A stretch of 64,000 nucleotides of DNA from Marinitoga piezophila KA3 (GTDB taxonomy: Bacteria > Thermotogota > Thermotogae > Petrotogales > Petrotogaceae): positions 930,001 to 994,000 of the forward strand of contig NC_016751.1 in the NCBI RefSeq assembly GCF_000255135.1, given 5' to 3'. The notes under the pieces were generated by a model. The model was not told the DNA's origin, did no database searches, and worked only from the letters and a program-made list of their open reading frames with translations. Shown here piece by piece: positions 13,359-18,682 of the stretch (its first letter is position 1; the number at the start of each line of letters is the position of its first letter). Both the position numbers and the translations under genes were made by a program.

Positions 13359-16300
13359 TTAGAACATATTTATATCTACACCTTTTTCTTCGGTATATCC
13401 AAATGATTTCTCAGGTATATCTGCAATAAAGAACTTTAATTCAAATTGTTTAAATGAAAATTCTGGCAATAATTGTAAATCTCCCTTTAAGTATATTGAC
13501 CAACATATGATCTTTTTATTAATTTCAAACTGCGAAAATGTCCATTCGTTATTTTTTATATCATATGTAAACGAAATCTTCGCCCAATCATATTTAGTCG
13601 CTGTATCATAACCTATTCCAGTTTTTAAATATTGATTTTCAATATCATAATCTATTGAAGTCGTAAGACTTTTAGACGCATCTTTGGCTTTGTAGCTCAA
13701 ATCGTAATGAATATTGTTATAATCATTAAATAAATTTAAATTCCCTTTATATTTTCCACCATATTTATCGTAAAAAAGATATTTTGATTTTATTTGAGGA
13801 ATTGTTTCTTTCCAATCTTCTTTTTTAAAATAATAATCATAAAATATTTCTATTTTATTTTTACCAAAGGTTATTATATCGTTATTTTCTATCTTTATTA
13901 TAGGTAATTCTTCATCTTTGTGATTGTATTCAAATTCATATTTATGCTTTAAAATTGCAATCTTTAAAAAACCATTGAAATTTGTCGTAATAAATTCAAA
14001 ATTTTCTTTTTCCAGAGATGTTTTTGTATTATTTTCAAATTCTAAAATACTATATTTTAAATTATATTTTGTTGTAAAAAAATGCGCAATAAATCTATCT
14101 TCTCTATTTTCTTTCATAAAATCAAAAGTTCTATTATATCTTCCATCAAAAGAGTTTTTTACATCTAATATATCCCACGATGCATCGATACCAACAAAAT
14201 CGGTTAATTTGTTTGTATGCGTAGCGGGAGTGGAAATCCATTTCGGTTCATTAACTAAAACTCTATAATATTGATAATCTGAAACACCATATTGAAAAAC
14301 AAAAGCTCTAATTTTAAAGTTACCTTTTGTCCCATAGGTAAAATAATTGTATATTCTATCAGGATATATATGTTTAAATGACATTCTCATCTCAGGAGAA
14401 AGAGATGAGTCTATTGAAAACCAATTATTATAAAAAAAATCATTTGAATATTTTATAGGTGTAATTTTATTGTATATTGCATCTTTTAAATATAAATTCA
14501 AACTTCTTAAATTATCTCTTTCATATAGAGCTGAAAAAGATGTTTTTATTTCATTTTTTAGAGAACCATTGTATATTTTTGAATTTGTAGATGTATTTAT
14601 ACTTATTTTCTTTTTATCCCACGAATCCGATAATTTAGTTGCAGGTCCAGTAATATATAGACGAGTAGAATTTAACTTAAAATAACTTTTTTTATATTTT
14701 TTTTCCAGTGAAGGTGTTGTAAGTTTTAAAAAAGTTACAGAACTTAAATTTCTATTTCTCCATGAATACGCTGAATATAATGAAAACTTACCTAAATCTG
14801 TTTTTATATCCTTTAAAGACAGAGAAAATGCATCTGAATTGTTTGAAAAACTATGAATAACCTGTGCAGAATAAGTAAGGTTTTCCAATTTTTTTGTTAA
14901 TGAAAATTTCAAATCTGAAATGCTTGAATTTGAAATACTATTTGAAAACGCAAGTGTTCCAAGAATCATAGGAATTGAATATGTATAACTCATTTTTTGT
15001 GAAACTGTATTTTCTTTTGTATTTCTTGAATATTCCTGTGAATAAGATAGTATAGATTTGTCTGGAAATGTGTGATTAATTTTTACTGTAATAGTAATTG
15101 AATCATTTTTAAATGCAAAAGCAGCCAAAAATGGAGCTTTCTGTTCTTCAGCTAAACTTTGAAAATAGAAAGGAAAATAAAAAACTGGAATACCAAAAAA
15201 TTCAAGTGTAACGTCACGCGCAATAAGAAATTGATCAGGATAGATTGTTACATGAGAAGATTTAAAGTAATATGTAATACATTCCTTACATGTTGTCATC
15301 TTTACTCTTTCGGAAAATACAACATCATCATCTGTTTTCTTTTTTGAAATTTCAGACCATACGCGTATTTTTACATTCTTTTTTTTTTCATTTTTAAATG
15401 ATTCTATTGAATATGTATGATTTAAAATTACATCTTTACTTTCAAAATTAACTTCCATTTGAGACGCTTCTATGGTTCTTTTGCCCTGAATATATGTAAC
15501 ATTATCCAATAAATATGCGTTTTGAATTTGATTTTTATCATTAAGAAACCCATATCCTCTTGGAGCTTTAATAATTGAATCTTTGTATTTTATAGTTGTA
15601 CTTCCTTCAAATGTAATCTTTGTTCCATCTATAGTGATATTCTCGGAATCAATAAATACCTTTTCAGAATATCCGTAATTTGCAAGAAATACCACTACAA
15701 TACCAACACCAATTATTCTTTTTAAAGGTTCAATTAATTTATATGCTGCTCTTGTATCAAGTAATATAAATAATACAATTCCAACTATACCAAAAAATAT
15801 ATTAGGCAGCCACGGTGCAAGATATGGATTTATAATCTTCTCCTTTCCCAAAGCACTTAACCATGCACCAGACCCCTGATATAATACAACAAGTATAAAT
15901 GTTGAAATAACACTCCACGATTTACTTTTCAGGTTTATAAATAATGAAAGCGCTACTCCAAGAAGCGCTATAACCATTGGCGCAACTGAATTAGAAAATT
16001 TTTCCTGATAACCAACAATTAAAGCTGATGGATCTCCACCAAGTCTTTGGGTTATTTCAATTTTGTGCTTTAATTCTTTTGTTGTCATATCATTTGGACT
16101 TTTTGAAAATCTCAGATATTCTTCAACATCCTTTGATATATCCAATTTTAATTTTTTAAATGTAATATCAAGTTTTAAAAGTCCATCATCTGTTAATCTA
16201 AAAATTCTTCCATTTTCCATATACCAGGTATCTTTATCCTTAAATGCCTTTTCTGCATGAAAAACCGTTGTTTTAGAATAATCCACCTCATATAATAATA

Positions 16301-16823
16301 TTCCATACAAAATACCCTTATCTTTATCTATTTTCCTTACGTATAAATACTTTTTATTTCTTTCAACCTCAACGAATTTATTCATCTCTATGTTTGCTTG
16401 AGCACTTTTATACACATACTTTGAAATAGCTTCTTTTGCTTTCATATTTGATTTTGGAACTATTGTATCGTATAACGCAAAAGTAAAAATTGAAAGAATA
16501 AACGATAACACCAGAAAAGGTAATATTATCTTTTTTGATGGGATACCCAAGGACTGTAAAGCTATAATTTCATTATCATTAGATAACCTTGATAAAACCC
16601 AGAATATAGAAAAAAGTATTCCCACGGGAATACCCATCACAAGAAAATATGGAATATGGAAAGAGATTAATATAAATAATTTATCAATTCCAACTTTATT
16701 TCTTACAATTATATCTGATAATTGATACAATAATTCAACACTTACAAATACGATAAATCCAACAAGTCCCATTAAAAAAGGGGATATAAACTCTTTGGAT
16801 ATGTATTTCAGCAATTTTGTCAT
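13359..16823 (-). CDS. LptF/LptG-type permease fused to LptA/LptD-like outer-membrane protein
   Basis: 1154 aa in one uninterrupted frame. Residues 1-365 form a YjgP/YjgQ permease: spans near 15-35, 50-75 and 100-120, a periplasmic domain, then three C-terminal spans (about 275-360). Residues about 366-388 (RIIGVGIVVVFLANYGYS) look like an internal signal peptide with small residues at -3 and -1. Then an OstA/LptA-like jellyroll (about 390-490: IDGTKITFEGSTTIKYKDS), an LptD-like linker (IARDVTLEFFGIPVFYFPFY) and a beta-strand-rich barrel to the end. In Proteobacteria these parts are separate Lpt components. The protein could span the envelope or be cleaved at the internal signal. Start ATG 16823 behind GGGGGAATAG. 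Confidence 0.85.
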   Translation of the reverse strand: MTKLLKYISKEFISPFLMGLVGFIVFVSVELLYQLSDIIVRNKVGIDKLFILISFHIPYFLVMGIPVGILFSIFWVLSRLSNDNEIIALQSLGIPSKKIILPFLVLSFILSIFTFALYDTIVPKSNMKAKEAISKYVYKSAQANIEMNKFVEVERNKKYLYVRKIDKDKGILYGILLYEVDYSKTTVFHAEKAFKDKDTWYMENGRIFRLTDDGLLKLDITFKKLKLDISKDVEEYLRFSKSPNDMTTKELKHKIEITQRLGGDPSALIVGYQEKFSNSVAPMVIALLGVALSLFINLKSKSWSVISTFILVVLYQGSGAWLSALGKEKIINPYLAPWLPNIFFGIVGIVLFILLDTRAAYKLIEPLKRIIGVGIVVVFLANYGYSEKVFIDSENITIDGTKITFEGSTTIKYKDSIIKAPRGYGFLNDKNQIQNAYLLDNVTYIQGKRTIEASQMEVNFESKDVILNHTYSIESFKNEKKKNVKIRVWSEISKKKTDDDVVFSERVKMTTCKECITYYFKSSHVTIYPDQFLIARDVTLEFFGIPVFYFPFYFQSLAEEQKAPFLAAFAFKNDSITITVKINHTFPDKSILSYSQEYSRNTKENTVSQKMSYTYSIPMILGTLAFSNSISNSSISDLKFSLTKKLENLTYSAQVIHSFSNNSDAFSLSLKDIKTDLGKFSLYSAYSWRNRNLSSVTFLKLTTPSLEKKYKKSYFKLNSTRLYITGPATKLSDSWDKKKISINTSTNSKIYNGSLKNEIKTSFSALYERDNLRSLNLYLKDAIYNKITPIKYSNDFFYNNWFSIDSSLSPEMRMSFKHIYPDRIYNYFTYGTKGNFKIRAFVFQYGVSDYQYYRVLVNEPKWISTPATHTNKLTDFVGIDASWDILDVKNSFDGRYNRTFDFMKENREDRFIAHFFTTKYNLKYSILEFENNTKTSLEKENFEFITTNFNGFLKIAILKHKYEFEYNHKDEELPIIKIENNDIITFGKNKIEIFYDYYFKKEDWKETIPQIKSKYLFYDKYGGKYKGNLNLFNDYNNIHYDLSYKAKDASKSLTTSIDYDIENQYLKTGIGYDTATKYDWAKISFTYDIKNNEWTFSQFEINKKIICWSIYLKGDLQLLPEFSFKQFELKFFIADIPEKSFGYTEEKGVDINMF

Positions 16824-16827
16824 TTAT

Positions 16828-17547
16828 CTATTCCCCCATTGAATAAAATATATCAAATCCTTCTTTTGTACATTTATATCTATCCCCGGTCAATATAAAT
16901 ATTGTATACTCTGCAATGTTAGCACTTAAATCAGAAAACTTTTCTATATTTGAAAGTATTTCAATATGTGCCATAATAGATCTAAAATTATCTTTTGAAA
17001 CTTTCAACATTAAATTTCTTTTAAACGCTTCATACAAACTATCTATTTCATTATCGGTATTACAAATTTCTTTAGCAAGTTCAAATGACTCTCCAAGAAC
17101 ATTCCCGTCTTCTATAACATTTGAAAATAATTTTAACGCATCACCTAACATTCCCTGAGAAATTTCAAAGAGATCTTCAAATTGATATGGATTTATAGAA
17201 TTCGGTAATTTTAAAAGATCCACATTATTTTTAGCCATTGTTTCACACATATCTGCCATGCTTTCAAGGATTCCTATTATTTTATTGCCTAAAAAAACAA
17301 TTTTTAATGATTTTCCATAAAGATTATTGGTTGCTATAATCTCCATAGCCTTATATTCAAGGCGTGCTTCTACAAAATCAACACGCGCATCCTGTTCTAT
17401 AATTTCTTTTGATAACTTCATATTTTTTTCAAAAAAAGCATCTTTGAACTTTAAAAACATTCCCTGGACAATTCTGCCCATTTTTAAAATTTCGTTATGA
17501 TATGAAATTATTATATTCTTTGTTTCTTCTGGTAATAAATCTATCAT
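16828..17547 (-). CDS. PhoU-domain protein
   Basis: 239 aa, all-helical, with the repeated PhoU E/D-rich helices (for example IIEQDARVDFVEARLEYKAME and EICNTDNEIDSLYEAFKRNL). PhoU proteins bind metal clusters and modulate phosphate uptake or related transporters. No pst genes are nearby; it overlaps nadK by 4 nt and precedes the Lpt fusion gene, so it may serve a different transporter. Confidence 0.78.
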   Translation of the reverse strand: MIDLLPEETKNIIISYHNEILKMGRIVQGMFLKFKDAFFEKNMKLSKEIIEQDARVDFVEARLEYKAMEIIATNNLYGKSLKIVFLGNKIIGILESMADMCETMAKNNVDLLKLPNSINPYQFEDLFEISQGMLGDALKLFSNVIEDGNVLGESFELAKEICNTDNEIDSLYEAFKRNLMLKVSKDNFRSIMAHIEILSNIEKFSDLSANIAEYTIFILTGDRYKCTKEGFDIFYSMGE

Positions 17548-18371
17548 ATCAATCTCCTACCAAAGCCTAATTTATTTATTAATACTTTAAAAAATGAATA
17601 ATCATTTTTCTGTGCAAGAGTTACTTTCTTATCAGATGATGAAACTAATACAGCCATTCCACTTTCAATTCTATGAACTATATCGCCATCAACAGTTACA
17701 TATGCATTACCCGCATCAATATGATGAATCATTATTTCAACATAATTATCAGGAGAAATTACCAACGGTCTTATATTTAAAGAATGTGAAGCTAAAGGAT
17801 TTATAGTTATAAGATTTAATGAGTGCTCAATTACCGGTCCGCCCATGGACAAAGCATAACCCGTAGAACCTGTTGGAGTTGAAATAATAACTCCATCTCC
17901 AGAATAATTTAAAACGCTTTCTCCTTTTATTAATATTTCAAGATCAACTGTTCCAATAGGCTGACTTTTCTGAATGGTTATATCGTTTAAAGATAATATT
18001 TTCTTTCCTCCAACATAGCATTCAAGCAAAAATCTATCTGAATAATGCAAATTGTTAGAAGCTATGTCTTTAGCAGCCTGTTCCATTTCTGTGCTATCAT
18101 ATGCAGTTAAAAATCCCAATGTTCCAAGATTTATCCCAACTATAGGTACAGAATATTCAGCAGATAATTCTGCAACTCTTAAAACAGTTCCATCTCCTCC
18201 CAAGACAATAAAAACATCAGATTCCTGATAAAGAGTATTATCAGGAAGTGCAGAACCTGCTGGCATTACCTTTAAAATTTCAATATCATTTTCTTCAAAA
18301 ACATGAAGATAATTGTCTATTATTTCCTGTTTTTTTGCTTTTATAGGATTAAAAAATAAAATTCCTTTCAA
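17544..18371 (-). CDS. nadK: NAD kinase
   Basis: 275 aa. Phosphorylates NAD to NADP. Motifs: VLGGDGTVLRVAEL (GGDG ATP site), GINLGTLGFLTAYD and VIISTPTGSTGYALSMGGPV. I place the start at TTG 18371: it gives the family N-terminus MKGILFFNP and sits 6 nt after GAGGTG; a GTG at 18380 would overlap the Shine-Dalgarno. The gene lies between yggT (stop near 18377) and the PhoU-like gene. Confidence 0.93.
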   Translation of the reverse strand: MKGILFFNPIKAKKQEIIDNYLHVFEENDIEILKVMPAGSALPDNTLYQESDVFIVLGGDGTVLRVAELSAEYSVPIVGINLGTLGFLTAYDSTEMEQAAKDIASNNLHYSDRFLLECYVGGKKILSLNDITIQKSQPIGTVDLEILIKGESVLNYSGDGVIISTPTGSTGYALSMGGPVIEHSLNLITINPLASHSLNIRPLVISPDNYVEIMIHHIDAGNAYVTVDGDIVHRIESGMAVLVSSSDKKVTLAQKNDYSFFKVLINKLGFGRRLI

Positions 18372-18376
18372 GATTA

Positions 18377-18682
18377 TCACCTCAAAACTCGAGCAAGGTC
18401 AAAAAGCGTATTAACCAAAAAGCTATCGAGTAATATTAAAATTAATATTGACACAAATGGTGTAAAATCAAACATTCCAACAACCAATCTCCCACCAAAT
18501 AACCTTCTTACAGGTCTATTTATAAGTTCAGAAACCTGATCGAAAAAATTTCTAATAGGATTATGATAATTAAAGGATATAAATGAAAAAATAGAAGATA
18601 TAACTATAGATATTTCAAAAAAGTTTATTACTATTCTTAAAACATTTGCTATACCATAAAAAAGATTCCCTAATATGAACAT
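18377..18682 (-). CDS. YggT-family membrane protein
   Basis: 101 aa from ATG 18682, preceded by CAGGAGGTTGAT; a longer frame reading back into yggS lacks a ribosome-binding site. Two hydrophobic blocks (about 3-35 and 70-98) around the YggT-type segment YHNPIRNFFDQVSELINRPVRRLF. Family members are involved in envelope or division functions next to yggS in many bacteria, as here. Confidence 0.87.
   Translation of the reverse strand: MFILGNLFYGIANVLRIVINFFEISIVISSIFSFISFNYHNPIRNFFDQVSELINRPVRRLFGGRLVVGMFDFTPFVSILILILLDSFLVNTLFDLARVLR

Follow-up and report, generated by a model that had tools for sequence, protein, structure and literature searches.

An in-frame fusion of an LptF/LptG-type permease and LptD in Marinitoga piezophila, shared by Thermotogota and Bipolaricaulota and marked by a signal-peptide-like join

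The window analyzed here is a stretch of 64,000 nucleotides from Marinitoga piezophila KA3 (contig NC_016751.1, forward-strand positions 930,001 to 994,000, equivalent to C2:930001-994000 of genome G000 in our numbering). It carries on the minus strand a frame of 1154 codons with an ATG start and zero internal stops, at a place where the plus strand is stop-rich (Table 1). A first-pass annotation made from the DNA alone had described this open reading frame (ORF) as a permease of the LptF/G type joined to an LptA/LptD-like outer-membrane barrel, and the Pfam scan, Foldseek and a profile of the C-terminal halves all agree with that description. By sequence and model, residues 1-356 are a complete LptF/LptG-type permease and the C-terminal part a complete LptD, consisting of a beta-taco and a barrel. 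No description of a permease-LptD fusion was found in the literature searched, a scope that left most subscription literature outside.

Table 1. Window positions of the fused gene, its parts and the two genes next to it
Feature	Position	Strand	Basis or remark
Whole fused gene, LptF/G permease + pre-LptD	13359..16823	minus	1154-aa ORF, Pfam, AlphaFold2, Foldseek
LptF/LptG-type permease, residues 1-356	15756..16823	minus	Pfam LptF_LptG, VIA-align, model
Seventh hydrophobic helix / putative internal signal peptide, residues 358-386	15666..15752	minus	Model, alignment, natural splits
Beta-taco (LptA / LptD N-terminal domain), residues 387-556, 12 strands	15156..15665	minus	Model, PF03968, VIA
LptD-type outer-membrane beta-barrel, residues 565-1154	13362..15131	minus	Foldseek, VIA
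Cys512 codon	15288..15290	minus	Aligns with LptD N-terminal-domain Cys
Cys1107 codon, C-terminal CW motif	13503..13505	minus	Conserved Cys column
PhoU-domain gene	16828..17547	minus	Directly upstream of the fusion; Pfam scan and 32-locus comparison
NAD kinase gene	17544..18380	minus	Next upstream neighbor; Pfam scan and 32-locus comparison

For the N-terminal part, the Pfam family LptF_LptG (PF03739) matched residues 6-353 over positions 1-352 of its 353 (E 6e-77, 259.5 bits against a cut-off of 27.9). The equivalog cut-offs of NCBIfam were not reached for either LptF (158 vs 230) or LptG (144.4 vs 240), and the permease is therefore neither subunit by name. An AlphaFold2 model of the window protein, built from 55 aligned relatives, had a mean predicted local distance difference test score (pLDDT) of 82.7 and a predicted template modeling score (pTM) of 0.41, the latter so low that the relative placement of the parts is not trustworthy. 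Within the permease, the model contains six transmembrane helices, with periplasmic jellyroll strands at 149-227 between the third and the fourth, and VIA-align superposed model residues 1-356 on LptG (6mjp_G; Z 27.8, root-mean-square deviation (rmsd) 7.9, 348 aligned). In addition, E85 in the NEIIALQ helix was invariant across the 55 aligned rows.

The C-terminal part was recognized by profile and structure comparison. Residues 390-1154 gave zero Pfam matches in the single-sequence scan, and the Pfam LptD barrel model PF04453, a narrow model found in only 2 of 14 control genomes, was above its cut-off in 0 of 103 Thermotogota genomes, a result that could partly explain how the LptD of this phylum escaped surveys. 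The structure prediction proposed at the first pass recovered both the LptG and the LptD folds: the model contains 12 taco strands at 390-556 and 39 strand segments beyond residue 560 (34 of them at least 7 residues long), and in a Foldseek search of the PDB full-length LptD took ranks 1-11 (best E 4.6e-19), followed by LptG/LptF. VIA aligned residues 386-1138 with the E. coli LptD model 9a39 (Z 19.7, rmsd 8.7, 506 aligned), a high rmsd that indicates that the barrel superposes broadly only, and aligned the taco with LptA (2r1a_C; Z 13.4, rmsd 2.7, 117 aligned, residues 386-513) and LptC (4b54_A; Z 12.6, rmsd 1.9, 110 aligned, residues 387-511). Furthermore, a profile of 41 C-terminal halves matched PDB chains of LptD in the N-terminal domain and the start of the barrel (E 1.4e-7 and 8.8e-6) as well as LptA (E 3.1e-5), hhalign paired it with E. 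coli LptD over 191 columns (91.9% probability, E 6.8e-7), and PF03968 matched 22 of these 41 halves at E <=0.1.

E. coli LptD carries a disulfide pair between a cysteine of its N-terminal domain and a C-terminal one. In the fused proteins, C512 is cysteine in all 55 aligned sequences and aligns with the N-terminal-domain cysteine of LptD in both the profile and the hhalign comparison, and C1107, which we take to be at the position of LptD's C-terminal cysteine, is conserved in 45 of the 53 rows having a letter there. The C-terminal cysteine is replaced by His or Lys in 7 of 41 Thermotogota proteins (L050, L066, L068, L069, L056, L058, L060), all of which keep the N-terminal-domain cysteine. 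Moreover, three fused proteins of family f2 (L042, L043, L064) are 1426-1453 residues long and have 852-872 residues between the two conserved cysteines, compared with about 510-640 in other Thermotogota, which makes either the barrel or its loops much larger.

The distribution of the fusion was followed in 103 Thermotogota genomes, 101 of which (all except G004 and G032) matched the window protein; one relative, Marinitoga lauensis, had 93% over the permease. The join is intact in a single frame in 97 of the 101, and open frames of at least 900 amino acids occur in 90, including a 1150-residue frame with one TAA in its barrel part (G043). Seven genomes have the gene cut or broken elsewhere with the join still in frame (G022, G031, G034, G041, G061, G093, G097), two have it split (G005, G053), and two do not show the join owing to contig ends (G001, G054). 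At L005, L007 and L054 the frame is interrupted, in G043 by the TAA just mentioned, in G041 at several points and in G093 within the permease; these interruptions may be real or may be assembly errors.

Outside Thermotogota, a scan of genome contigs seeded with Thermotogota motifs gave eight loci titled Bipolaricaulota or Acetothermia, with whole ORFs of 1086-1160 amino acids at seven (L139, L140, L141, L143, L144, L145, L149) and one truncated by a contig end (L150); a further locus, titled just 'bacterium' (L142), was left out. Among 100 Bipolaricaulota genomes, PF03739 matched 91 (90 above the cut-off), and 76 of the 91 had frames of at least 900 amino acids, measured from stop to stop and thus upper bounds. 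The shorter frames are split (G154, G155, G175) or lie, by their coordinates, at or near contig ends, with two exceptions: in G121 the frame breaks next to bases that are masked or unknown, and the match in G170 is below the cut-off. For the 11 long-frame Bipolaricaulota loci fetched (L184-L194), permease and C-half profile matches fell in a single ORF every time (weakest E 2e-4). The AlphaFold2 model of L139 (mean pLDDT 82.8, pTM 0.52) retrieved LptD at Foldseek ranks 1-15 with LptF/G after, and VIA aligned it with LptF (5x5y_F; Z 26.2, rmsd 7.6, 340 aligned) and LptD (9a39; Z 16.8, rmsd 6.1, 537 aligned). The conservation check suggested at the first pass thus places the fusion throughout one phylum and in a second. 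An artefact of sequencing or annotation that joined neighboring genes found no support, though G041, G043 and G093 show broken frames, and it is refuted because the join recurs unchanged in numerous assemblies made independently, some of them single-contig genomes, from both phyla. Plasmid records searched with the whole protein gave, among the best 5 of 17 rows, distant permeases at E 1e-14 or weaker. In the permease tree, the root is weakly supported (66/65) and the outgroup branches are long, and it is therefore not established that the fusion arose once, ahead of the divergence of the two phyla; transfer between them is possible.

The join itself holds the hydrophobic stretch ending in a signal-peptidase-like GYS that the first-pass annotation had pointed out, at about residues 370-386. 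In the model, a seventh helix spans 358-380 and the stretch 377-386 has a pLDDT <50. LptF/G proteins have six helices with both ends in the cytoplasm; because the permease ends there, the orientation of the seventh helix is that of a signal peptide. The join was aligned across 49 fused proteins, comprising 41 from the fetched Thermotogota loci (near-duplicates and cut ORFs excluded) and 8 from Bipolaricaulota. The column of S386 holds A, C, G, S or T in 45 of 49, amid more variable columns; the -1 position is small in 45, the -3 position small or aliphatic in 45, and both together in 41. At 24 other offsets within 12 residues the same (-1,-3) rule was satisfied by 1 to 30 of the 49, with the higher counts (17-30) at offsets -5, -4, -3, -2 and +7 and at most 16 at all others. 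The distance from the last lysine or arginine to the cut had a median of 17 residues (15-22), and the net charge of the n-region a median of +3. The window protein satisfies the n-, h- and c-region features together with the (-1,-3) rule, with a predicted cut at GYS|EK; other predicted cuts are GFS|EK, AFG|DT and VWA|AE in Thermotogota and GWA|QE and AWA|QE in Bipolaricaulota. On these sequence features, the join looks like an internal signal peptide, with a charged n-region, a short core and a candidate signal peptidase I site after S386.

Natural splits of the gene fall at the same place. In G053, a permease of 387 amino acids ending RLLG is followed, within few bases of its stop, by the ATG of an 848-residue barrel ORF. 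This ORF begins MHLRYKSFSPVLFIISLFFIILSGTKVFSA and has acquired a charged n-region, followed by a core and a site resembling a cut site; because residues were added, this split is not a mere frameshift. In two Bipolaricaulota genomes (G154, G155) the permease and barrel ORFs lie side by side and start with hydrophobic residues, and in a third (G175) the barrel lies far from the permease on the same contig and has a clear signal peptide, MRAIAAVAAVVCAVLAPVVLA. In G005, two adjacent permeases (394 and 376 amino acids) occur with an 849-residue LptD on another contig and a 603-residue protein with three LptA-type (PF03968) stretches. In this genome, of family f6 (L035:7410-9743, L092:6294-8105), the fusion has been undone and the permease doubled into divergent adjacent copies, as if the lineage had gone back to having LptF and LptG as separate proteins; the two copies join on long branches, and a duplication within f6 is not firm. 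The first-pass annotation had counted unfused genes in close relatives as evidence against the fusion. Such genomes exist, but in a permease tree of 47 rows they nest inside fused clades at four places (the exact position of G175 having a support of 91/49), and they are read as later fissions for that reason. Were a lasting link between the halves essential for their function, splits of this kind would not be expected to persist. The same splits bear on whether the halves are made separately, by an internal translation start or by frameshifting, with the long ORF never read through: the second ORF of the split lineages starts at the corresponding place, yet the join is one open frame in nearly all matching Thermotogota, and this explanation is very improbable.

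Regarding the other parts of an Lpt machine, the first-pass annotation had pointed to lptB, lptC and the lpx genes, of which lptB was recovered. LptB was above the curated cut-off in 98 of 103 Thermotogota genomes; in M. piezophila it lies at C2:261622-262320 (288.9 bits against a cut-off of 240), directly after a gene for an OmpH/Skp-like periplasmic chaperone (L080:6085-7318). The M. piezophila genome gave one PF03739 match only, and because this is the sole LptF/G homologue found there, the permease is probably a homodimer. Furthermore, an LptA-like gene with a signal-peptide-like start was identified at C2:118188-118850 (PF03968, 34.5 bits against 20.4). Separate LptA-like genes, often of about 208-346 amino acids, occur in many Thermotogota genomes, and PF03968 was detected at E <=0.01 in 92 of 103, in some inside the fused protein and in others in a separate gene. 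The M. piezophila copy is near two overlapping patatin-like ORFs and a gene for a 770-residue coiled-coil protein with a sub-threshold SLH match (L091:6189-10747 = C2:118188-122746), perhaps a tether of the Omp-alpha type. For LptC (PF06835), the matches that were followed fell in the LptA-like gene or in NfeD-like ORFs of 158 amino acids, leaving no convincing separate LptC. As part of this search, the 160-residue frames of G046, G047, G049 and G050 were dropped as LptC candidates; the ORFs of G047 and G049, by eye, look like members of the NfeD family and stand beside a stomatin-like gene. LpxC gave no match in any of the 103 Thermotogota or the 8 Bipolaricaulota searched, while the controls E. 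coli, Caulobacter, Synechococcus and Bacteroides all matched; the search covered LpxC only among the lipid A genes. Thermotogota therefore probably possess, as far as gene content can tell, a near-complete Lpt machine that exports a lipid other than classical LPS (lipopolysaccharide).

The first-pass annotation had left it undecided whether the product bridges the envelope as one chain or is a polyprotein cut in two. The length of the taco is informative here. The N-terminal domain of E. coli LptD is similar in size to the shorter of the classes observed, in which 175-193 residues separate the predicted cut from the barrel (33 of 41 Thermotogota); the distance is 228-267 in the other 8 and 225-288 in the 8 Bipolaricaulota. 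Because most tacos match the ordinary LptD N-terminal domain in length, there is no extra segment that would span the periplasm. An uncleaved bridge would keep the 1154-residue chain intact: its seven helices would hold it in the inner membrane and its barrel in the outer one, while the taco would serve as LptC, LptA and the N-terminal domain of LptD at once. The seventh helix followed by a taco does reproduce the layout of LptC, to which residues 387-511 align, and PF06835 turned up no convincing separate LptC. Against such a chain stand the conserved signal-peptidase pattern, the short hydrophobic core and the repeated splits in which the barrel has its own signal-peptide-like start; moreover, a 12-strand taco is probably too short for the usual periplasm, and the separate LptA-like gene would be redundant. 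Such a bridge is unlikely on this evidence. A cut polyprotein, rather than a permanent one-chain bridge, is favored because of the (-1,-3) site and the splits with signal-peptide-like barrel starts, and also because the taco is mostly of ordinary LptD length and a separate LptA-like gene exists.

Several points weigh against cleavage. The strict rule is missed at the aligned column in 8 of 49 proteins (L010, L019, L032, L057, L058, L061, L066, L071), two of which (L057, L071) have G one residue after it. The longer tacos (225-288 residues) of 8 of 41 Thermotogota and of the Bipolaricaulota leave some room for a bridge. Since almost every member of the two phyla has retained the fusion, synthesis as one chain seems to bring some benefit for which cleavage alone does not account. 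Finally, MlaD of Veillonella parvula is a published example of one chain with anchors in both membranes (PMC10665443); that protein spans the envelope by means of an extra helical stretch, about 150 residues long, which has no counterpart here. Partial or regulated cleavage, in which some chains are cut to free LptD and others stay whole and form contact zones between the membranes (for instance at the poles, where the toga separates from the cell), could explain why both the cut site and the fusion have been conserved for so long, and could accommodate the taco lengths that differ between lineages. However, four lineages seem to manage without whole chains, to judge from the splits, and this reading is quite improbable. 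There is a small but real chance that a covalent bridge is retained in at least part of the population in some form, the seventh helix and taco replacing LptC and a permease homodimer carrying two LptD gates.

Cleavage into a permease and LptD, with the products serving an Lpt bridge that carries a lipid other than classical LPS, is thus the likely fate of the lptF/G-lptD polyprotein. The chain would be inserted as a polytopic inner-membrane protein whose six permease helices leave it in the cytoplasm, and the seventh helix would act as LptD's own signal peptide. Signal peptidase I would cut after about residue 386, and the permease would keep the signal peptide as a seventh transmembrane helix that could, as a guess, replace the transmembrane helix of LptC. 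The permease, probably a homodimer, would work with LptB, while the mature LptD (taco and barrel, about 768 amino acids) would travel to the outer membrane. Together with the separate LptA-like protein, the two products would form an Lpt bridge delivering a non-LPS lipid, conceivably a polar glycolipid or phosphoglycolipid, to the cell surface.

Compared with the LptB2FGC-A-DE machine of E. coli and other LPS-bearing diderms, the system shares a permease of the LptF/G fold, LptB, an LptA-like taco, and an LptD with taco, barrel and cysteine positions, whereas it has one LptF/G gene (in M. piezophila) instead of two, fused in frame to lptD, and no convincing LptC and no LpxC match were found. 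The cytochrome b/c1 polyprotein of Bradyrhizobium is similar in design, as a polytopic protein followed by an internal signal sequence is cut into two subunits, but it belongs to a respiratory complex and both products stay in one membrane. An Lpt system of six proteins in a diderm without LPS has been described in Borrelia burgdorferi, in which, as far as the excerpts of that article go, all genes are separate, including two permease genes and distinct LptC and LptD (PMC10353723). V. parvula MlaD is alike in combining an inner-membrane part and an outer-membrane barrel for lipid traffic in one chain, and differs in its MCE domain, the helix region noted above, its 10-strand barrel and its membership of another transport system; the excerpts describe no signal-peptidase-like join (PMC10665443).

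The neighborhood of the fused gene is partly conserved. Of 32 loci compared, many have the order ruvB-yggS-nadK-phoU-fusion, and phoU either abuts the fused gene or overlaps it. Other loci were without one or more of these four neighbors within the fetched stretch, and six (L033, L035, L036, L037, L039, L040) had none of the four there.

In previous surveys, Thermotogae are listed as without coding capacity for LPS (PMC5007114), and Thermotogota as without nearly all of 16 outer-membrane genes except bamA (PMC8871954). Work on an Acetothermia (Bipolaricaulota) genome reported bipolar appendages and an absence of LPS genes, the monoderm or diderm nature of the organism being hard to decide (PMC6092417). 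Thermotogae, which are counted among the phyla without LPS, and Bipolaricaulota are named together for an outer membrane detached at the cell poles (PMC10665443), and these are the two phyla in which the fusion was found, a coincidence that may reflect either cause or kinship. The lipids reported for Thermotoga maritima include diglucosyl glycolipids (PMC8788747), a possible Lpt cargo. In view of the conserved set of LptB, LptA-like and LptF/G-LptD proteins in Thermotogota and the LptF/G-LptD fusions in Bipolaricaulota, both phyla probably have an outer membrane supplied by a dedicated route of lipid export, despite the finding of no LpxC. If a covalent bridge were retained, the Lpt machine in the two phyla would have the further role of fastening the outer membrane to the cell at particular sites. 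The questions of which lipid Lpt carries where there is no LPS, and of whether Lpt is older than LPS or has outlived it, thereby become testable, and a natural permease-LptD polyprotein would offer a handle on how the inner and outer ends of an Lpt bridge come together.

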